IMG/VR virus record: IMGVR_UViG_3300032118_000048
Span: 1 to 28,677 of that record
DNA length: 28,677 nucleotides
Direction: 5' to 3' (one strand)
From: a virus
Shown: positions 6,021-16,392 of the stretch, in pieces
Numbering within the stretch: the first letter of the stretch is position 1
How the letters are laid out: every line of letters starts with the position of its first letter
Made by a program: the position numbers and the translations under genes
The notes under the pieces: generated by a model
What the model was told of the DNA's origin: nothing
Database searches by the model: none
What the model saw: the letters and a program-made list of their open reading frames with translations, nothing else

Positions 6021-6323
6021 ATGAAATTTAATTTGACAACAGAAGAATTTAAGACTTGGTGCAAAGCAAACAAGGAGCAATTAAAAAATATTGATATTTT
6101 GAGAATTGTAACTTTTAAAAGACAAACAGCTCACAATACTTTACAAAGTTTTGGAACTGAAATTTTAGCACTTGAAAAGCAAGGTTTAAAATCAATTGGA
6201 ATTAGAACTGTAACAGATACAAAAAAGTTATGGTTAAGAAGCCAAACAGATGCAAACAATAGTTTTTTAACTCTTTTGGCAAATAACGAAATTGAATGTT
6301 TAGAATTTAGTACATCATTTTAA
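6021..6323 (+). CDS. Hypothetical protein (100 aa)
   Basis: The open frame runs back to an ATG-like start near 5970, but that part is promoter P2 and reads as low-complexity Tyr/Ile. The ATG at 6021, 20 bases after the -7 element, is the plausible start. The 100-residue product begins MKFNLTTEEFKTWCKANK and has mixed helices with Lys and Leu. It lacks Cys/His metal patterns beyond single residues and has no membrane segment. A sequence LRIVTFKRQTAHNTLQSFG resembles a DNA-binding helix pair, but this is weak. First gene of the P2 transcript; function unknown. Confidence 0.65.
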   Translation: MKFNLTTEEFKTWCKANKEQLKNIDILRIVTFKRQTAHNTLQSFGTEILALEKQGLKSIGIRTVTDTKKLWLRSQTDANNSFLTLLANNEIECLEFSTSF

Positions 6324-6345
6324 TTAACTGATAAAAAAAAAAACT

Positions 6346-6609
6346 ATGGAAGTTAAAGATTTTAAAGGAACAAAAGGAAAATGGAAAATTGCAACTAAAA
6401 GTGATAGATGTATTTCTTTAAACACGGATAAAAGAGGTAGTTTTATTGATTGCTGGGGTGGAGAAATTGCAGATGTTTCAACAGAAGAAATGAAAGCAAA
6501 TATGCAGTTGATTTTAACCTCAAAAGAATTATTAAACGCATGTATTAAAGCGAGTAAAATCATGAACCTTCCATATCTTGAAAAAGCAATTAAAAAAGCA
6601 TTAAAATAA
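6346..6609 (+). CDS. Conserved small phage protein (87 aa)
   Basis: The 87-residue protein begins with FKGTKGKWKIA, a start I associate with a common Bacteroidota phage protein of unknown function, and ends with a helical, Lys-rich segment containing LLNACIKASKIMN. Its ATG follows an A-run and ACT. The stop codon overlaps the ATG of a 29-residue membrane peptide (TAATG), so translation is likely coupled. No catalytic residues are recognised. Proteins of this type are usually early. Confidence 0.7.
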   Translation: MEVKDFKGTKGKWKIATKSDRCISLNTDKRGSFIDCWGGEIADVSTEEMKANMQLILTSKELLNACIKASKIMNLPYLEKAIKKALK

Positions 6610-6698
6610 TGAAAGTTCCATTATTAACAGTAATCGCCCATTTATTCCAGATGGTTATTTGGGCGATATTTTTCTTTTTCATCATTTTACACAAATAA
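6609..6698 (+). CDS. 29-residue single-pass membrane peptide
   Basis: A tiny ORF whose ATG overlaps the preceding stop (TAATG) and whose stop lies one base before the next ATG. Almost the whole product is one hydrophobic helix (LLTVIAHLFQMVIWAIFFFF), ending in HK. Its tight fit between neighbours and membrane-helix composition argue that it is real. Possible roles such as exclusion peptide or membrane anchor are guesses. Confidence 0.5.
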   Translation: MKVPLLTVIAHLFQMVIWAIFFFFIILHK

Positions 6699-6699
6699 C

Positions 6700-6921
6700 A
6701 TGAACTTAGACGAACAATTTAAAAAAAGCGTGATAGTGTTTATTAGCTTTATTATTTTACTTGGAGTGATAGTATTTATAAGAATAAAGGTAAACGTTCC
6801 GCAAATCAAAGAAAAACAGCAAAAAAAGGTATTTGAGTACAAAGAGCAAACAGATTTAAACTTAACAGAGCTTGAAAATGGTAAAAGGTTATTTTACGAA
6901 GAATTAAACGGGACAAGATGA
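6700..6921 (+). CDS. Small membrane protein with cytoplasmic-type charged tail (73 aa)
   Basis: After a short charged start (NLDEQFKKS), residues 10-27 form a clear transmembrane helix (VIVFISFIILLGVIVFI). About 45 charged residues follow, rich in Lys and Glu, probably a helix (KEKQQKKVFEYKEQ). No signal-peptide cleavage site is evident, so it is likely an anchored single-pass protein. It begins one base after the stop of the 29-residue membrane peptide and overlaps the next 27-residue ORF by ATGA. The arrangement recalls small spanin- or exclusion-like gene clusters, but no lipobox or lysis gene is near. Confidence 0.6.
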   Translation: MNLDEQFKKSVIVFISFIILLGVIVFIRIKVNVPQIKEKQQKKVFEYKEQTDLNLTELENGKRLFYEELNGTR

Positions 6922-7001
6922 AAACAGCAATTAATTTTATACTCAATTGGATTCTAAACAGAATCAATGACGGGTTAATATCACAGCAAAACGGATTTTA
7001 A
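6918..7001 (+). CDS. 27-residue peptide ORF
   Basis: The ORF overlaps the previous stop by ATGA and ends 4 bases before the exonuclease start. The product (MKTAINFILNWILNRIND, then a polar tail) would be an amphipathic helix. Coding status rests on the overlap and the compact spacing alone, and it may only serve translational coupling to the exonuclease gene. Confidence 0.4.
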   Translation: MKTAINFILNWILNRINDGLISQQNGF

Positions 7002-7005
7002 AATT

Positions 7006-7551
7006 ATGGGAAAAGTAAACATTGCAATAATTGATATTGAAACAGGAGGATTCGCCAAAGAAAAAAACGCTATTTGCGAAATAGGAGTTATTATCGTTGA
7101 TAAAGAGTTCAATGAACTGGAGCGTTACGAGGCAATTATAAAGCCGTACAAACGCATTGGAAGTGATGAATTATGCAGTTATAAATTTGGTGCCATGCAA
7201 GTGAATAATATTTTAATGAAAGACATTGAAAACGGAAAGGAAATTGGATTTGTTTTAAGTGAATTAATTCAGATTCTTAAAAAATATAATGCGAAATCTT
7301 TTTGTGGTCATAACTCCAGCAACTTTGATTTTAAATGGGTTGATTATTTGATTGAGAATTATTCGGATGAACCTTTTGATTTTTTAGAATGCCTTGACAC
7401 GATGAAAATGGCTAAAATGTTGCTCCCAAGTTTAGGTTCACATTCTTTGAAAGCTGTTTGTTTACATTTTGAGGTTGTAAACAATAACCCACACAGGGCA
7501 ATTGGTGACGCAGAAGCCACTTTGGGAATATTAAAACACCTTATTAAATAA
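7006..7551 (+). CDS. DnaQ-like 3'-5' exonuclease (DEDDh)
   Basis: The 181-residue protein has the three motifs of DEDDh exonucleases: DIETGG with Asp10 and Glu12 (Exo I), HNSSNFDFKW at about 102-111 (Exo II), and HRAIGDAEAT at about 163-172, where His163 and Asp168 complete the active site (Exo III epsilon). The length fits a stand-alone catalytic domain like the epsilon subunit of DNA polymerase III or RNase T. It would remove nucleotides from 3' ends of DNA or RNA. No polymerase gene is in the window, so it may proofread for the host replisome or process recombination ends. It starts 4 bases after the preceding peptide ORF. Confidence 0.9.
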   Translation: MGKVNIAIIDIETGGFAKEKNAICEIGVIIVDKEFNELERYEAIIKPYKRIGSDELCSYKFGAMQVNNILMKDIENGKEIGFVLSELIQILKKYNAKSFCGHNSSNFDFKWVDYLIENYSDEPFDFLECLDTMKMAKMLLPSLGSHSLKAVCLHFEVVNNNPHRAIGDAEATLGILKHLIK

Positions 7552-7557
7552 TTTTAC

Positions 7558-7565
7558 TAAATTTG
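7558..7565 (+). promoter_or_regulatory. Possible -7 element before the 75-aa membrane protein gene
   Basis: TAAATTTG followed by CC, 17 bases before the ATG at 7583. No TTG lies at the proper distance upstream, so this is only half a promoter signal. Confidence 0.35.
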
Positions 7566-7582
7566 CCTTAAAACACTTCAAA

Positions 7583-7810
7583 ATGAAAGATAAAAAATGG
7601 TTAAAAATAACGATTGGACTTTTCATTATTCCAATTATGTTTTGCGTATTTATTCTTGACAGAATAACGCTTTTAGTTCTTCCACATGTAGCCGGAACAA
7701 CAATACAAAAATTCCTTTTTGATAAAAAAGAAATGAAATCCAGTTTAATTCGAGTTATCGCAGTTGGTATTTTTTACTGGTTAATCGATTTAATTTACTA
7801 TTCAATATAA
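7583..7810 (+). CDS. Small membrane protein with two predicted helices (75 aa)
   Basis: Residues 8-29 (ITIGLFIIPIMFCVFILDRI) and about 56-75 (IRVIAVGIFYWLIDLIYYS) are hydrophobic segments separated by a charged stretch with DKKEMK. Both ends are short. The two-helix hairpin and size could fit a holin or a membrane-inserted accessory protein, but the gene is not next to a lysin and holins usually lie elsewhere, so the function is left open. It follows the exonuclease after a 31-base gap with a possible -7 element and precedes a 49-base gap with an inverted repeat. Confidence 0.6.
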   Translation: MKDKKWLKITIGLFIIPIMFCVFILDRITLLVLPHVAGTTIQKFLFDKKEMKSSLIRVIAVGIFYWLIDLIYYSI

Positions 7811-7827
7811 TCCAAAATCTTCTTAGC

Positions 7828-7856
7828 AAATAAATGGTATTTATTTTGTATATTTG
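7828..7856 (+). promoter_or_regulatory. Inverted repeat plus -7 element before the HNH gene (possible operator)
   Basis: AAATAAAT (7828-7835) and ATTTATTT (7839-7846) form a perfect 8-bp dyad around GGT. It ends two bases before TATATTTG (7849-7856), a perfect -7 element. The ATG at 7860 is only 3 bases after that element, so the transcript would be nearly leaderless. A -33 TTG at the usual distance is missing. Confidence 0.5.
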
Positions 7857-7859
7857 GGC

Positions 7860-8384
7860 ATGAAAAAATATTTCTGTAAGAATTGTAATAATGAATTTGA
7901 AAGCAATAAAGGCTGTAAATCAAGAATTCCAAAGTTTTGCAGTAAAAAATGTTCAGCTATTTACAATGTAGCACTTCCAGAAGTAAAAGAAAAAATGTCA
8001 CTTGCAAAAATTGGAAAACCAGCTTGGAATAAAGGAGTGAAAATGTGGGAGGGCAAAGAACACCCAAAGGGGACAAAAGGAATGAAATTTCCTGAAAGGT
8101 CAGGCGATAAATGCAATTTTTGGTTGGGTGGTGTTTCAACTGAAAATGAATTACAAAGAAAAACACCTGAATACAAAGAATGGAGAACAAAAGTGTTTGA
8201 AAGGGATAACTTTACATGTCAGGAGTGTAATAAAAAAGGATTAAAAATACATGCAGACCATATAAAACCATTTTCAAAACATAAAGAGTTAAGATTTAAT
8301 ATCGATAATGGTAGAACATTATGTGTTGAGTGTCATTATAAAACAGAAACATACGGAGGAAAAATGTTAAAATATGAAAATTGA
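7860..8384 (+). CDS. HNH endonuclease with N-terminal zinc ribbon and NUMOD3-like linker
   Basis: The ATG at 7860 is chosen because the zinc-ribbon domain starts directly after it. Residues 5-40 hold Cys pairs (CKNC, then FCSKKC). The middle has AKIGKPAWNKG and repeated Lys-Gly motifs typical of the NUMOD3 DNA-binding segments of homing endonucleases. The C-terminal 60 residues are the HNH nuclease: RDNFTCQECNKKG, then HADHIKPFSKH with the catalytic His, and LCVECHYKT, with two Cys pairs for structural zinc. It would nick or cut DNA. It may be a homing-type mobile gene, or may help the terminase, as HNH proteins near terminases do in HK97-type phages. It overlaps the methyltransferase gene by 11 bases. 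Confidence 0.87.
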   Translation: MKKYFCKNCNNEFESNKGCKSRIPKFCSKKCSAIYNVALPEVKEKMSLAKIGKPAWNKGVKMWEGKEHPKGTKGMKFPERSGDKCNFWLGGVSTENELQRKTPEYKEWRTKVFERDNFTCQECNKKGLKIHADHIKPFSKHKELRFNIDNGRTLCVECHYKTETYGGKMLKYEN

Positions 8385-9591
8385 ATTAATTAAAATCTCA
8401 AAACTTGTAAATAATACAGGTCAAATTGAAGGACTTCCAAGAAATCCCAGAGTTTTAAAGGACGATAAATTTCTTAAATTAAAAAAATCATTGCAAGACG
8501 ACCCCGAAATGCTTGGGCTTCGTGAGGTTATTGCATACGATAATAACGGAGAATTAGTAGTTATTTGTGGGAACATGCGCTTAAAAGCTTGTAAGGAGTT
8601 AGGAATAAAAGAAGTTCCAACAAAAATACTTCCAATTGAAACATCAGTGGAAAAACTAAAAGCTTACACAATCAAGGATAATGTTTCCTTTGGAGAACAC
8701 GATTGGAGTGAACTTGCAAATGAATGGAATCAAGAAGAATTGGAAGAATGGGGATTGGATTTACCCGTTGACTTTAATCCCGAAGTACTAGAAGCAGAAG
8801 AAGATGATTTTGATGCAACGCCTCCCGAAACACCTATCACCGTTTTAGGAGACATTTACGAAATTGGAGAACATCGTTTACTTTGTGGAGATAGTACACA
8901 AACAGATACTTTTGAAAAACTAATGCAAGGAGAATTTGCTGATATGGTTGTAACCGACCCACCGTATAATGTTGCTTATGAAGGCAAAACTAAAGAAGCT
9001 CTTACTATTGAAAATGACTCGATGGGGAATGATGATTTTTATAAATTCTTATATGATTTTTATACAGCATTAACTACAGTAGTAAAAAAAGGTGGTGCGA
9101 TTTATGTTTGGCACGCTTCATCGGAAATTATAAACTTTGGAAAGGCGATGGTAGATTCAGGTTGGCTTTTAAAGCAACAGTTAATTTGGGTAAAAAATAC
9201 AATGGTAATGGGAAGACAAGATTACCAATGGAAGCACGAACCTTGCTTATATGGTTGGTTAAAAGGAGATAGTCATAAATGGTATTCAGATAGAAAACAA
9301 ACAACCATTATTGAGTGGGATAAACCTCAAAGAAACGGAGAGCATCCTACAATGAAGCCAATTGGAATATTTGCTTATCAAATAGAAAACAGTTCTAAAC
9401 AAGGCGATATTGTAATAGATGCATTTGGAGGTAGTGGAACTACAATGGTGGCTTGTGAGCAAATAAAACGCAAGGCACGAGTAATTGAATACGACCCGAA
9501 GTATTGCGATGTAATAGTAAAGCGAATGATAAAACTTGACCCGACACTTACAATAAAACGTAACGGAGAAGTAACTAAAGACTTTGAGTAA
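8374..9591 (+). CDS. ParB-like domain fused to a DNA adenine/cytosine-N4 methyltransferase
   Basis: This 405-residue protein has two parts. Residues 1-130 form a ParB/Srx-type domain, with LPRNPRV near residue 22 and VICGNMRLKACKELG at about 62-76, the conserved G-N-x-R box. Residues 160-400 form an amino-methyltransferase: catalytic DPPYNV at about 195-200 (motif IV), then DAFGGSGTT near 350-357 (S-adenosylmethionine site, motif I). This order, IV before I, is that of the beta class of N6-adenine or N4-cytosine enzymes. Such fusions are common just before small terminase genes and probably modify phage DNA against restriction. All key residues are present. It overlaps its neighbours on both sides (11 bases and 1 base). 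Confidence 0.9.
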   Translation: MKIELIKISKLVNNTGQIEGLPRNPRVLKDDKFLKLKKSLQDDPEMLGLREVIAYDNNGELVVICGNMRLKACKELGIKEVPTKILPIETSVEKLKAYTIKDNVSFGEHDWSELANEWNQEELEEWGLDLPVDFNPEVLEAEEDDFDATPPETPITVLGDIYEIGEHRLLCGDSTQTDTFEKLMQGEFADMVVTDPPYNVAYEGKTKEALTIENDSMGNDDFYKFLYDFYTALTTVVKKGGAIYVWHASSEIINFGKAMVDSGWLLKQQLIWVKNTMVMGRQDYQWKHEPCLYGWLKGDSHKWYSDRKQTTIIEWDKPQRNGEHPTMKPIGIFAYQIENSSKQGDIVIDAFGGSGTTMVACEQIKRKARVIEYDPKYCDVIVKRMIKLDPTLTIKRNGEVTKDFE

Positions 9592-10613: not shown

Positions 10614-12047
10614 ATGAATAAGGAAACAGATATACATTTAATTCAATTAAAGTGTTTAAAATCGTTTAGTTTTTTCACACGTTATTTCTTTAAAGGTAAG
10701 AGCCAAAGAAAGTTTGTTTTAAATGAACACCATGAAATAATTTTTAAAGCCTTACAGCGTGTTATTGATGGCAAAACAAAGAAGCTAATTATTAACATCG
10801 CACCAAGATATTCAAAAACGGAAATAGTTGTAAAGAATTTCATTGCATACGCTTTGACGTTTAACCCGAAAGCAAAGTTTATTCATTTATCGTATTCAGA
10901 TACTCTTGCATTGGATAATAGCGAAGAAATCAAAGATTTAATCCTTTCGGACGAATACCAGCAACTATTTCCACACGTTCAAATTAAAAAGGATTCCAAA
11001 GCCAAAAATAAATGGTACACAACGGAGGGCGGTGGAGTTTTAGCACGTTCAGCCAGTGGTCAAGTTACAGGTTTTGGAGCTGGAGAAGTTGATAGGGAAG
11101 AAAACGATATTGACGAATTTACGGAACTGAATACAATAAGCTCTTTTGGAGGTGCAATTATTATTGACGACCCAATTAAACCAGATGAAGCTGGTTCTGT
11201 AACGGTGCGCGAAAAGATTAATAACAAATTTGATACAACTATTCGGAACCGTGTAAATTCCCGAAATACTCCAATCATTGTAATTATGCAAAGGCTTCAC
11301 TCAAACGACCTTTGTGGATATTTAATGGATAATGAACCGAATGAATGGGAGGTTGTTTCATTACCAGTAATCAAAACAGATGGAACGGCTCTTTGGTCCT
11401 TTAAACATACAATTGAAGAACTTCATAAATTAAGAAGAATTAATGAATTTGTTTTTGATACTCAATACATGCAAAATCCTAAACCTAAAGAGGGACTTTT
11501 GTTTGCTAAAGAGGATTTGAACTATTATAACGGAAACGACCTTAAAACGGCTGAAATTAGCGGAAAATTGGCTTTTATTGATATTGCTGACACGGGAACA
11601 GATGCTCATTCAGTTCCAATTGGTTATTTAATAGGTAAAAAGATTTATATTCACGATGTATTATACACTACAAAAGGAACGGAAGACAACGTTGGAATGA
11701 GTGCTGAAATACTTAATAAACATCTTCCAGAATATTGCCGTGTGGAATCTAATTTTGGGGGTGGCATGTATGTACAACTGTTGACACCTTTAGTTAATGG
11801 AATGGTTTCTTTATTACCAATTAGAGCAACCAGTAATAAACATTCAAGAATAATTCAAATGGCTGGTTTTATCAAAGAGTATTGTTATTTCCGTACAGAT
11901 TACGAACATGGCTCCGACTATTATCACTTCATGAAGAATTTAACCGAGTATTTAAAGACTGGTAAAGTAGAACACGACGACGCTCCAGACAGTTTGGAGG
12001 GTTTATGCTCAATGATTAAATCTTTTCACTCCGATTTATACCAGTAA
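10614..12047 (+). CDS. terL: Terminase large subunit
   Basis: The 477-residue protein has the ATPase and nuclease halves of large terminases. NIAPRYSKTE at about 61-70 is the variant Walker A loop used by this family (P-R-x-S/G-K-T/S). AIIIDDP at about 180-187 is Walker B with the catalytic acidic residue. QRLHSNDLCGYL (about 226-237) is the coupling region. The RNase H-like nuclease has AFIDIADTGTDAHS near 320-333, and HDDAPDSLEGL near 454-464 gives the last acidic residue. It powers DNA packaging and cuts concatemers. No split or frameshift is seen. Upstream lies the P4 cassette rather than terS directly, and downstream a promoter, not the portal gene, which is unusual. Confidence 0.93.
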   Translation: MNKETDIHLIQLKCLKSFSFFTRYFFKGKSQRKFVLNEHHEIIFKALQRVIDGKTKKLIINIAPRYSKTEIVVKNFIAYALTFNPKAKFIHLSYSDTLALDNSEEIKDLILSDEYQQLFPHVQIKKDSKAKNKWYTTEGGGVLARSASGQVTGFGAGEVDREENDIDEFTELNTISSFGGAIIIDDPIKPDEAGSVTVREKINNKFDTTIRNRVNSRNTPIIVIMQRLHSNDLCGYLMDNEPNEWEVVSLPVIKTDGTALWSFKHTIEELHKLRRINEFVFDTQYMQNPKPKEGLLFAKEDLNYYNGNDLKTAEISGKLAFIDIADTGTDAHSVPIGYLIGKKIYIHDVLYTTKGTEDNVGMSAEILNKHLPEYCRVESNFGGGMYVQLLTPLVNGMVSLLPIRATSNKHSRIIQMAGFIKEYCYFRTDYEHGSDYYHFMKNLTEYLKTGKVEHDDAPDSLEGLCSMIKSFHSDLYQ

Positions 12048-12075
12048 AATCAAGGGTTTTAGCTTAAAAACAAAA

Positions 12076-12123
12076 ATAATTTACTTTTTATTAGGTTTAT
12101 ATATTTATATATATGTATATTTG
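12076..12123 (+). promoter_or_regulatory. Promoter P3 with the conserved upstream block
   Basis: TATATTTG at 12116-12123 is a perfect -7 element, 25 bases before the ATG at 12149. The block ATAATTTACTTTTTATT starts at 12076, 40 bases upstream of the -7 element, as in P1 and P2. The -33 TTG is degenerate. Confidence 0.68.
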
Positions 12124-12148
12124 TTAAAACATTTAAAAAATAGAAATT

Positions 12149-12319
12149 ATGAAAGCATTAAACCAACAAGAAGCAATTTATTACAGAAACAACTTGGTAT
12201 CATTTATTGATTGGGATAGCGTTTATGAAGTTGAAACATTAACAGGTACAGATTTTAGAATTTCTATTTATGTTGGAACAGCTTTATTGAATGTGAGCTT
12301 TCACGAATTATCAAATTAA
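12149..12319 (+). CDS. Small hypothetical protein (56 aa)
   Basis: A 56-residue ORF, first after promoter P3, with the A-rich leader AAAAAATAGAAATT. The sequence begins with a helix (MKALNQQEAIYYRNNLVSFI) and continues with alternating strand-like residues (YEVETLTGTDFRISIYVGT). Such a helix plus strands is a compact fold, but no family is recognised. It is followed after 24 bases by the radC-like gene, so the two form a cassette. The ORF is short, but promoter position and coding-like composition support it. Confidence 0.6.
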   Translation: MKALNQQEAIYYRNNLVSFIDWDSVYEVETLTGTDFRISIYVGTALLNVSFHELSN

Positions 12320-12343
12320 TATTAACCAATAAAACACTACAAA

Positions 12344-12787
12344 ATGAACAGTATTGCAGAAGTAAAATTAACCTATACAACAAAGGTTAAAGCATCGGAC
12401 AGGGAAAAGATAACATCAAGTGAAAAAGCTTGTCAAATATTTAGACCGTTTTTCTCCGATATAATGGAGTATAAAGAAGCGTTCTTTGTTATGTATTTAA
12501 ACAGGGCGAATAAAGTGCTAGGAGTCATTAAAATAAGCGAGGGAGGTTGTTCAGGAACTGTTGCAGATGGTAAAATTATTTTTCAAGGTGGATTATTAGC
12601 AAATGCACAGGCTATGATTCTTTGCCATAACCATCCGAGCGGAGCATTAACACCAAGCGAAGCCGATTTAAGGTTAACCTCAAAAATGGTTGAATTTGGT
12701 AAAATGATTGATTTACCTATATTGGACCACGTTATAATCACAGAAGAAAGTTATTATTCATTCGCTGACAACGGCAAAATTTCATAA
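12344..12787 (+). CDS. radC: RadC-family JAB/JAMM domain protein
   Basis: The 147-residue protein is a RadC-type JAB1/MPN domain. HNHPSGALTPSEAD (residues 95-108) carries the zinc-binding His-x-His and Asp, and the upstream acidic and Gly-rich part (KISEGGCSG) fits the family. It lacks the N-terminal helix-hairpin-helix of chromosomal RadC proteins (about 220 residues), so it is the short form common on plasmids, prophages and defence islands. The biochemical role of RadC is not firmly known; a metal-dependent DNA-related or peptidase-like activity is proposed for the fold. It lies in a promoter-terminator cassette between terL and the inverted portal gene, not in the recombination operon. 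Confidence 0.88.
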   Translation: MNSIAEVKLTYTTKVKASDREKITSSEKACQIFRPFFSDIMEYKEAFFVMYLNRANKVLGVIKISEGGCSGTVADGKIIFQGGLLANAQAMILCHNHPSGALTPSEADLRLTSKMVEFGKMIDLPILDHVIITEESYYSFADNGKIS

Positions 12788-12796
12788 ATAAAAAAA

Positions 12797-12820
12797 AAAG
12801 GGAGTTTAAAAGCTCCCTTT
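12797..12820. terminator. Bidirectional terminator between radC and the inverted portal gene
   Basis: AAAGGGAG (12797-12804), loop TTTAAAAG, CTCCCTTT (12813-12820): a perfect 8-bp stem. On the plus strand it follows radC by 9 bases; on the minus strand it begins 4 bases after the portal stop and is followed by an A run that is a T run in the minus transcript. It can end both convergent transcripts. Confidence 0.85.
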
Positions 12821-12824
12821 GTTA

Positions 12825-14066
12825 TTATAATTCTAATTTAACAAGCCTTTTAATTTCTTCGCTGGAGTACATTCCAACTTCCGAAAGTGTTTTAATTGTG
12901 TTTGCTTTACGTTCCAAGATTTCAGCATTTTCTTTTCGGTTTTCTTGTAGTACTGGGATATGCGCATAGCACAATTCTAAAAATTCGCCTTTTTCAAGCA
13001 ATTTAAACTGTTCTGAACGTTGCATTGCTAGTTCTTCGGCTTCTGGTATAATAGTACTTTGATAAGCTTGTTTCATGCCCTCATTAAGATTTTCAAAGGT
13101 GCTACCTTTTGTACGACTAAACAGGTTAACATTCATGCCGTAATTATCAATGATTGTTAAAAAATCTTCATCTACTTCTTCGAATAACATCATATCCTTT
13201 GTTGGAAAGGACATTGATTGCCATGTCAAAGAAGCATTTGTCATAAGAATTTGTTGTTGGTCCTTATCAATTCCAAATTGTCTTTGATATTCCTTGTCAA
13301 TTCTTTTACGTTCTGTATCTGAAAGTGGTATTGCTCCAGAACTATCTTTGGAAGCATTTGTAAGCAATCCAAGTGCTCCTTTCTTGGTCATAATAACGTT
13401 TCTAAACTGGTATGACGCACGAATGTTAGAAATAGGCATGTGAATAGGTATCATCGGACTTTCGCCCTTAACAGCGTTTAAAGCGTTAATTATTCTTGTA
13501 TGATTAACCTCTTTTGTTTCCAGTTTGTCAATAGCAACTGAATTTCCCTTTTCAAAAACTTCGTAATAAAGAATAATATCCTCAATTTTTGTTTGTTTGT
13601 AGTATTTTCCAGATGTTTTAATAGCTACTGTTGTCGGGTCAATGTTTGTTAATTGGTCAGGCAAATCTTGATTATTAAAAGCCTTTAAAATATACTCGTA
13701 ATTGTTACCGAATACACACCTGTTCTCGTTCCATTGTCTTATTAAATCATTTCCCTTTACTAAGGGATTAGGATTTTCTAAAAGTTTAACGGCTGGAGAA
13801 TTAAGAATTTCAACTGGTTTACCATCTTTTCCAGCTTTGTAATGACGCCAAACTCCAGAAGCTAACAAATAACCCCTCCGATTAATTACAGCGTAAAGCT
13901 GGGGAGTAGTCATAAAGATATTATGAGCGTTCCAAGTGTCAGGATTTAAAAATTGTGCTTCCCCTGTTAAAATTTGAGTTTGATTTGGAAGTTTTGGTGT
14001 TTTGTAATACTCCCTTGAAGTATTAAAAAAAGCATTCATTATTTCTGGAACAGAGATTAAAGCCAT
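12825..14066 (-). CDS. Phage portal protein (HK97 family), on the minus strand
   Basis: The 413-residue protein matches HK97-type portals. Near the N-terminus NRRGYLLASGVW resembles the helix and wing start. VKLLENPNPLVKGNDLIRQW (about 92-111) and FGNNYEYILKAF (about 119-130) are the conserved portal positions. The second half has the clip/crown pattern, with LTWQSMSFPTKDMM and a helix with NVNLF (about 323-327). The C-terminus is helical and Lys/Glu-rich. The portal forms the dodecameric ring through which DNA is packaged. The gene is complete but runs opposite to all other genes in the window, between terL and the protease, where it normally runs with them. It therefore needs its own promoter near 14090 and ends at the bidirectional terminator. 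Confidence 0.88.
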   Translation of the reverse strand: MALISVPEIMNAFFNTSREYYKTPKLPNQTQILTGEAQFLNPDTWNAHNIFMTTPQLYAVINRRGYLLASGVWRHYKAGKDGKPVEILNSPAVKLLENPNPLVKGNDLIRQWNENRCVFGNNYEYILKAFNNQDLPDQLTNIDPTTVAIKTSGKYYKQTKIEDIILYYEVFEKGNSVAIDKLETKEVNHTRIINALNAVKGESPMIPIHMPISNIRASYQFRNVIMTKKGALGLLTNASKDSSGAIPLSDTERKRIDKEYQRQFGIDKDQQQILMTNASLTWQSMSFPTKDMMLFEEVDEDFLTIIDNYGMNVNLFSRTKGSTFENLNEGMKQAYQSTIIPEAEELAMQRSEQFKLLEKGEFLELCYAHIPVLQENRKENAEILERKANTIKTLSEVGMYSSEEIKRLVKLEL

Positions 14067-14088: not shown

Positions 14089-14127
14089 GCAAATTAAATC
14101 ATTTATAATAAATTATTCTACATTTGC
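14089..14127. promoter_or_regulatory. Possible divergent promoters between portal and protease genes
   Basis: GCAAAT (14089-14094) and ATTTGC (14122-14127) are mirror copies facing outward. On the plus strand TACATTTG (14119-14126) fits the -7 consensus. On the minus strand TTAATTTG (14097-14090) fits at 7 of 8 positions and lies 23 bases before the portal ATG. Neither has a TTG at the usual distance. Confidence 0.5.
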
Positions 14128-14159: not shown

Positions 14160-14246
14160 ATGGAAAAGGAAAAGATTGAAGCCATTAAACAGGCTAAAAA
14201 AGACCGTGAAAAAGCCGTTAAAACTCAACAAATTGTAAAGAAATGA
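14160..14246 (+). CDS. 28-residue basic peptide ORF before the protease
   Basis: A short ORF starting 33 bases after the TACATTTG element and overlapping the protease start by ATGA. The product (MEKEKIEAIKQAKKDREK, then VKTQQIVKK) is a highly charged helix. The coupling overlap and position make translation plausible, and the peptide might be a remnant or a small scaffold-type helix. No homologue is recognised. Confidence 0.45.
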   Translation: MEKEKIEAIKQAKKDREKAVKTQQIVKK

Positions 14247-15064
14247 CAAAGGAACAAGAAATTGCATACATCTTTAAGAATAAAGAGTTGATTATTACTC
14301 AAAAAACCAACGCGATTAAGCATGGGGATTTTTGTAATGCAGTAATTCAAGAAGATAATGGAGTTCAGAAAGCTGGTGTTGATGTTACTGGAGAGGATTC
14401 AACAGTTTTAAATGCAAAATTGATAATTAACACCACAAATGTCATTGACTCTCACATGGATTGCCATATCAACGGGTTGTGGAAAAAATCATTAAACGAA
14501 ACAAAATCTTTGCTTTTATTACAAGAGCACCAAATGGACTTTGAAAATGTTATTGCTGATTCTGTAAATGACAATTTAATAGCGACAACAGAAATAATTG
14601 ACTGGAAAAAATTAGGTTTTAAATTTGTGGGCAGTACAGAAGCATTGATTTTTAACGCTCAAATCAAAAAAGATGTTAACGAATTTATGTTTAATCTGTA
14701 CAGAAAAGGGAGGGTTTTAAATCATTCTGTTGGGATGCGATATATTAAAATGTTCCTTTGTATAGATTCCAACGAAGCGATGTATTCAAGTGAAAAAGCT
14801 AATTGGGACAAGTATTATCCAATAGTTGTAAATCAAGAAGTTGCAGACCATAAAGGATTTTTTTACGCAATTACGGAAGCAAAAGTAATAGAGGGTTCAG
14901 CCGTTGTAAAAGGTTCAAATGCTTACACCCCCACAATTGAAATTGAAATTGAAAAAGAAAATACTGGAGCCGATATTATCACTCCAGAAACCGAAGCCGT
15001 TTTAAACACTTCAAACAACAAATCTGGGGACAAGGCTTCACAGAAAATTAGTAGTTATTTATAA
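14243..15064 (+). CDS. Prohead protease (HK97/herpesvirus-like S21 fold)
   Basis: The 273-residue protein has the hallmarks of phage prohead proteases: VIDSHMDCHINGLWKKSL near residues 72-90, a catalytic His in LLLLQEHQMDF (His96), and the catalytic Ser in LNHSVGMRY (Ser162), giving the His/Ser arrangement of this fold. The Ser-Val-Gly-Met motif and the order before the capsid gene fit. It would trim the capsid N-terminus and itself during maturation. The C-terminal 60 residues are low-complexity Glu/Thr/Asn with a triple Ile-Glu repeat, typical of removable tails. The next gene, 11 bases on, is the major capsid protein. Sequence identity to HK97 gp4 is not obvious, so the call rests on motif and position. 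Confidence 0.8.
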   Translation: MTKEQEIAYIFKNKELIITQKTNAIKHGDFCNAVIQEDNGVQKAGVDVTGEDSTVLNAKLIINTTNVIDSHMDCHINGLWKKSLNETKSLLLLQEHQMDFENVIADSVNDNLIATTEIIDWKKLGFKFVGSTEALIFNAQIKKDVNEFMFNLYRKGRVLNHSVGMRYIKMFLCIDSNEAMYSSEKANWDKYYPIVVNQEVADHKGFFYAITEAKVIEGSAVVKGSNAYTPTIEIEIEKENTGADIITPETEAVLNTSNNKSGDKASQKISSYL

Positions 15065-15075
15065 ACAAAAAAACA

Positions 15076-16392
15076 ATGAAAAATTTTAAAGAATTTTTAG
15101 TTTCAAAAGGGCACAGCCAAGAGGCGTTTGATGCTATGGAACCAGCAGAACAAGCGGATTTATACAAGGAGTATAACGCTGAAATGAAATCCTTTATCAA
15201 CGAATTGCAAAAAACAGTTGAAGGAAAGGTTGACCAAGTTGCTTTGGATAACGCTGTTAAGGCATTAAACGAAGGGAAAACGGAAGAAATGCGTTTATTA
15301 GGTGAAAACATGAAAACAGTAATGTTGGCAATGAAATCACTTAGTGAAAAAGGCGTTAAAGCAGAAGTAAACAAAGGTTTACGAGCTTACATTATGGAGC
15401 ACTCTGAAACAATCAAGGCGATGAAAGAGAACGCTACACAGCAAAAAGCACACGCTGGGTTCTCAATGGAAGTAAACAAAGGAACACAGGGAGCAACCGA
15501 TATTGGAGACCGTGATTATTTAGGTACAATCGAAGCTGGAATTGAAAGAAAACCAGTAAGAATGACCAATATAATGGACTTATTTTCAAGAGGTCCAGTA
15601 AGCACTGAATATCTTCACTATTGGGAAGAAAACGTTGTAACTCGTGATGCTAAATTCGTGATTGCTTGTGCAACTTCTACGCATACAACCAAAGTAACTT
15701 GGGCGAAAAGAACTGTTGAATTAGCAAAACTTCGTGATATCGTTGATATTTGTATCGATATGATGGATGATTACGCATTTGTTGAGGGCGAAATAAACAC
15801 TTTAATAAACGAATCTATTGCTTTAAAAGCTGAATATGAATTGTTATTAGGTGCTTCGGCAACGGCAACAGATATGCTTTCAATAGACTTTATTTCAAGT
15901 GAATTTAACCCATTGAATGTTCTTGCAGATTTCAGTTTAGCAATCCCAGTTCCAACCTTGGGAGATTTGGCAATTTGTATGAAAGCACAAATCTACACTT
16001 TTGGACAGCAAAACAAATGGAATGCAGACACTATCATAATGAATTATACTGATATGGTTACCTACTTACTGGCTAAAGATTTGAATGGAATGTATTTGTT
16101 CCCGAATTTTGCGTTTGGAGTAACTGACAGAGTTGGGGATATGAGAATTGTAACTTCTCCAATTGTGGCACAGAATACGATGTACGTTTTAGATTCTACA
16201 AAAGGAAAAATTCTTGACAGAAAGAAAACGACAGTAGTGGCTTCATTTGAGAATAAGGATAACATTGAACATGAATTGGTGACAATGGTTGCAGTTGAAA
16301 GACTTCAATTCCATGTACGTTTAATCAATCGTGATGCGTTCATGAAGTGTTCAGATATTGCAACAGCGTTAACAGCAATCACAAAACCATAA
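15076..16392 (+). CDS. Major capsid protein, HK97 fold with N-terminal scaffold domain
   Basis: A 438-residue protein directly after the protease. Residues 1-115 form a charged, helical segment (many Glu, Lys and Ala) like the delta domain that serves as built-in scaffold and is cut off by the protease. The mature-like part begins around residue 130 (GFSMEVNKGTQGATDIGDRD) and continues with E-loop and P-domain type sequence, such as ERKPVRMTNIMDLF, YLHYWEENVV and a strand-rich end with VRLINRDAFMKC. Length and order fit HK97 gp5 relatives. No decoration domain is seen inside it. It is expected to be the most abundant virion protein. Confidence 0.88.
   Translation: MKNFKEFLVSKGHSQEAFDAMEPAEQADLYKEYNAEMKSFINELQKTVEGKVDQVALDNAVKALNEGKTEEMRLLGENMKTVMLAMKSLSEKGVKAEVNKGLRAYIMEHSETIKAMKENATQQKAHAGFSMEVNKGTQGATDIGDRDYLGTIEAGIERKPVRMTNIMDLFSRGPVSTEYLHYWEENVVTRDAKFVIACATSTHTTKVTWAKRTVELAKLRDIVDICIDMMDDYAFVEGEINTLINESIALKAEYELLLGASATATDMLSIDFISSEFNPLNVLADFSLAIPVPTLGDLAICMKAQIYTFGQQNKWNADTIIMNYTDMVTYLLAKDLNGMYLFPNFAFGVTDRVGDMRIVTSPIVAQNTMYVLDSTKGKILDRKKTTVVASFENKDNIEHELVTMVAVERLQFHVRLINRDAFMKCSDIATALTAITKP

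Follow-up and report, generated by a model that had tools for sequence, protein, structure and literature searches.

An antisense portal gene and its predicted back-to-back promoter boxes in a large group of probably Bacteroidota-infecting phages

Portal orientation in described phages and in the window

Phage P2 (Peduoviridae) is the nearest precedent for an antisense portal. Its head operons diverge, with P-Q read leftward and O-N-M-L read rightward. The late promoters pP and pO are likewise divergent, an annotated shared activator site lies between them, and a terminator follows the portal gene Q. The original prediction had taken portal and capsid to be collinear in tailed phages, a premise that is too strong since P2 breaks this rule. 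The classical HK97-type head module, by contrast, is read from one strand. More closely related are the Forsetiviridae (Polaribacter phages Freya and Danklef), whose portal is homologous to the one described here at approximately 31% identity, and for Forsetiviridae/Freyavirus distant homology is seen in portal, protease and capsid. Forsetiviridae, phi19:1 and Muminvirus also share the order of portal, protease, capsid and downstream head-tail genes, including a micro-ORF before the protease, but differ in that the portal is collinear with the capsid in all of them.

We analyzed a virus record of 28,677 bases, the whole of which is referred to here as the window. Its portal gene (12825-14066, minus strand) is intact, encodes 413 amino acids and matches PF04860 above the cut-off (E=1.8e-27, residues 58-386) as well as the PHROG portal families 2662 (E=7.2e-26) and 12. 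This ORF is the sole recognizable minus-strand gene of the window and lies between terL and the protease-capsid-tail genes, whereas the plus strand carries terL, RadC-like, protease-family, capsid, tail and tape-measure genes; the predicted opposition of the portal to terL, protease, capsid and tail was confirmed by ORF and profile matches. The portal is under purifying selection at a level like that of capsid and terL (dN/dS of approximately 0.1 against locus L016, with synonymous sites near saturation). Its predicted structure was poor (mean pLDDT of 51) and was kept out of the analysis.

The terminase large subunit gene, terL (10614-12047, plus strand; phrog_38, E=1.6e-97), is convergent with the portal, and a RadC-like JAB-domain gene (12344-12787, plus strand; PF04002, E=1.2e-35) is inserted at the junction between them. 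Just upstream of the packaging genes, positions 8374-9591 encode a ParB-like N-terminal region fused to an N6/N4 DNA methyltransferase. On the other side of the portal lie the prohead protease (14243-15064, plus strand) and the HK97-type major capsid protein (15076-16392, plus strand; PF05065, E=1.5e-12; phrog_10, E=6.2e-20). The 273-residue protease of the window gave no direct family match above threshold, and its assignment to the Peptidase_S78 family comes via homologues, 6 of 17 of which match PF04586 (best 3.8e-23). Histidine and serine columns are invariant or near-invariant in the family, and comparison of the protease model with the PDB returned weak matches only, including the capsid proteases T4 gp21 and HCMV protease. 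We accept the protease label at the family level.

The window thus shares with the HK97-type module a PF04860 portal, an S78 protease between portal and capsid (with PF04586 matched in relatives) and a PF05065 capsid, but the portal is inverted in the window and in most of its relatives. As in P2, where Q opposes O and N, the portal lies on the opposite strand to the scaffold/protease and capsid genes, and the present phages further share with P2 divergent head units, divergent promoters (predicted here) with a putative shared regulatory site between them and, in the window, a terminator after the portal. In P2 the large terminase gene, P, is read on one transcript with the portal gene. The present portal is on its own, with terL upstream on the capsid strand, and for this reason the group is not of the P2 type. 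A distance of 111 bp, with a distinct activator site within it, separates the P2 start sites, whereas the predicted boxes here are adjacent or fused. A search of the open-access literature turned up no description of a lone antisense portal.

Portal orientation across related loci

Viral contigs were searched with portal sequences and alignments, yielding 211 related loci including the window, which are partly redundant, and terL, portal, protease and capsid were placed across them by HMM mapping. In this redundant set the portal is antisense (opposite to terL and/or capsid) at 172 loci and collinear at 37, while the G000 extract and L061 (mixed) fall outside both classes. Counted as distinct portals at approximately 95% similarity, the classes comprise about 101 antisense and 27 collinear. 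The order terL-portal-protease-capsid is otherwise identical in the two classes, so only the portal has been turned round. Wherever both genes were mapped in an antisense locus, terL shares the strand of the capsid gene; the one exception is the chimeric-looking L061, which was excluded from the large trees. Fragments of terL occur on both strands of L061 and of L056, which points to fold-back or chimeric contigs.

The portal is collinear in the cultured relatives Danklef, Freya, phi19:1 and tooticki, and in four gut phage records. From the promoter type and these relatives, the antisense portal would characterize a large, mostly uncultivated group of phages that probably infect Bacteroidota; a host or prophage search gave no match belonging to the window clade. 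One collinear relative, L217 (RFQY01000125.1), sits in a contig labeled as a Rhodobacteraceae MAG and is possibly a mis-binned phage contig. The original prediction had also considered a second portal elsewhere, but none was found in the window record or in 16 longer related records (31-42 kb), apart from a same-orientation end repeat in G010. In this record the portal is present twice, near both contig ends and in the same orientation; the repeat did not pass an exact-match test, so terminal redundancy is not proven.

Directly before the protease of the window is a micro-ORF encoding 28 lysine-rich residues (14160-14246, plus strand), the stop codon of which overlaps the protease start (ATGA). 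It is conserved, with counterparts at this position in many relatives; these, for example in L012 (1825-1956), L214 (8109-8276) and L215 (7131-7247), are lysine-rich, approximately 22-55 residues long, often end in KxVxK or IVKK and likewise directly precede the prohead protease. The cultured collinear phages have the micro-ORF between portal and protease, and none was found before the protease in the L077/L110-type clade. By its position, the micro-ORF evidently remained with the protease when the portal turned.

Promoter boxes and terminators flanking the portal

The flavobacterial sigma-A -7 box has the consensus TAnnTTTG (PMC9723704). We searched for this motif in the 150 nt before each gene, with expected counts taken from shuffles. 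It is present upstream of antisense portals in 52 of 61 representatives (10.3 expected), upstream of the protease at 48 of 59 antisense loci (8.6 expected) and upstream of 12 of 18 collinear portals (2.0 expected), counts that are not independent because the representatives are phylogenetically related. Before the capsid, the next head-tail gene and terL of the same representatives, the motif occurs at background level. Portal and protease boxes are back-to-back in 37 of the 40 loci having both, and in 44 representatives the distance from the portal box to the ATG is 15-35 nt.

In the window, the region 14089-14127 had been suggested as a possible divergent promoter, and it does contain a candidate box on each strand. 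The proposed portal -7 box, TTAATTTG (14097-14090, minus strand), was read directly from the sequence, matches TAnnTTTG at 7 of 8 positions, with one mismatch, and lies 23 nt before the portal ATG, within the range of the relatives; all 10 aligned relatives keep its CAAA, which reads TTTG on the portal strand. On the plus strand, TACATTTG (14119-14126) is the proposed -7 box for the operon of protease, capsid and tail genes. Across loci the box separations are mostly 10-42 bp. At a separation of 10 bp the two boxes are fused into an 18-bp palindrome, CAAAnnTAnnTAnnTTTG, which occurs in 14 loci; the representative loci total 815 kb, and each of the 14 copies found in them sits at the portal-protease junction. 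Separations cluster near 10, 20, 30 and 40 bp, which is suggestive of helical periodicity or phasing, by a weak test uncorrected for relatedness. A -33 element was not clearly enriched near the boxes, so the host promoter alone may not explain them. A scan for E. coli sigma-70 promoters (55 found, 39 expected) was uninformative because the DNA is AT-rich.

At the other end of the portal, an intrinsic terminator follows the stop codon (12797-12820, minus strand). The element had been predicted as bidirectional, and this held: the portal strand has a hairpin with a T run behind it, and the plus strand gives a score for the hairpin as well. Among antisense portals, 11 of 59, the window's included, have a comparable terminator downstream (0.4 expected), as do none of 18 collinear portals. 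Most antisense portals have no recognizable terminator, and in several loci the portal and terL frames abut or overlap convergently by up to 38 bp, so insulation of the portal from terL is not universal. In L028 the portal (6234-7694) and terL (7663-8937) overlap convergently at their 3' ends, as do those of L038, L078 and L159 (20-38 bp). The L028 portal is approximately 75 residues longer than that of the window, and part of its C-terminus may be new coding sequence opposite terL. The terL-portal junction (12048-12824 in the window; also L051, L065, L056 and L198) is a variable insertion site, ranging from a 38 bp overlap to 3.5 kb of extra genes, with inserts that include the RadC-like gene in the window and DUF4494 plus unknown genes in L051.

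The idea of a separate portal transcript is well supported by the conserved, positioned and enriched two-way boxes and by the window terminator, and from these sequence features we infer that the boxes would be active promoters. We propose, with a probability of about 0.7, that the portal gene alone forms an autonomous transcription unit, turned round where it stands between terL and the protease, with its own flavobacterial-type promoter back-to-back with that of the rightward operon. Such a unit would consist of the promoter, the gene and, in the window, the terminator. Leftward portal transcription would start from a flavobacterial-type promoter whose -7 box is back-to-back with the box of the rightward protease-capsid-tail promoter. 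With most paired boxes this close, two polymerases could hardly bind together and would be expected to exclude one another, and the phage would set portal supply apart from capsid supply. An uncoupling of portal and capsid in dosage or timing is plausible.

A possible, though less probable, explanation is that the palindrome and paired boxes serve mainly as an operator, bound by a dimeric late regulator that the phage would encode and that would switch on the portal and head operons together, the divergence following from the shared site. The exclusive location of the palindrome at the portal-protease junction, the clustered separations, the weak -33 element and the annotated activator site between pP and pO of P2 are all consistent with an operator. 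However, each half of the palindrome is an exact host sigma-A -7 box at an ordinary distance from the start codons, and the box pairs are often unfused and form no palindrome. The regulator is also hypothetical, and the apparent periodicity comes from the weak, uncorrected test noted above.

Changes of portal direction and their interpretation

The portal tree of 79 representatives requires at least 4 changes of orientation, and a single antisense clade was rejected by the AU test (p=1.4e-4). When the portal was left out and protease and capsid of 68 representatives were used for the tree, 5 changes were required, 4 of which are forced by well-supported branches; long branches such as L013, L057 and L071 leave some of the changes less certain. 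On a careful tree with 37 representatives there are 2 changes (bootstrap range 2 to 2), to which collinear outgroups add at least 1. Comparison of these trees indicates that the portal changed direction several times in evolution. Collinear L111 and L134 group with antisense lineages, and in both of them portal and protease are each preceded by a box, a pattern that re-inverted descendants would be expected to show. A search for flanking inverted repeats able to drive switching yielded only short, imperfect, chance-like pairs. Beyond its nearest three relatives, the portal of the window groups with other relatives than do its protease and capsid, which suggests the exchange of portal cassettes between lineages.

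Several switches and the disagreement between trees would also fit a tentative second alternative, in which orientation is neutral: portal cassettes with their own promoters would sit either way round, shuffled by recombination and with no benefit in dosage or timing, as the boxes often carried by collinear portals might suggest. We consider this less probable, since antisense is the majority state, persists across deeply diverged lineages and is accompanied by a predicted two-way promoter of high specificity. Two further explanations have a negligible probability: an assembly artefact is rejected by L002, L003 and L010, from other metagenomes, which are 98-100% identical to the window around the portal and show the same orientation (L002 covering terL through part of the capsid gene), together with many diverged loci, and a recent inversion unique to this phage, as the original prediction had entertained, is rejected by the gene order of relatives with only 32-45% portal identity, whose common arrangement must be old.

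For the proposed inverted, autonomous portal unit, inversion of promoter and gene together would have kept the portal expressed, since a box of its own is already present at many collinear portals, and the protease would have gained or kept its own promoter. A more speculative extension, to which we give considerably less weight, is that the self-contained portal unit switches polarity around a palindromic two-way late promoter, at which polymerase or a phage regulator might pick portal or capsid at one site and so fix their ratio. We found no description of such portal-to-capsid control for HK97-type phages in the open-access literature. As judged by comparison of the loci, the arrangement is real, has a long history, has recurred and comes with regulatory sequence at set positions.

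A tailed-phage head contains a single portal of 12 subunits alongside hundreds of capsid subunits. How phages hold this ratio, and how they begin assembly at one vertex, is a long-standing question. The large natural set of repeated changes in strand and promoter of the lone portal provides paired lineages in which uncoupling of portal and capsid expression could be tested, and the junction is a candidate for a compact two-way promoter that Bacteroidota genetics could use.
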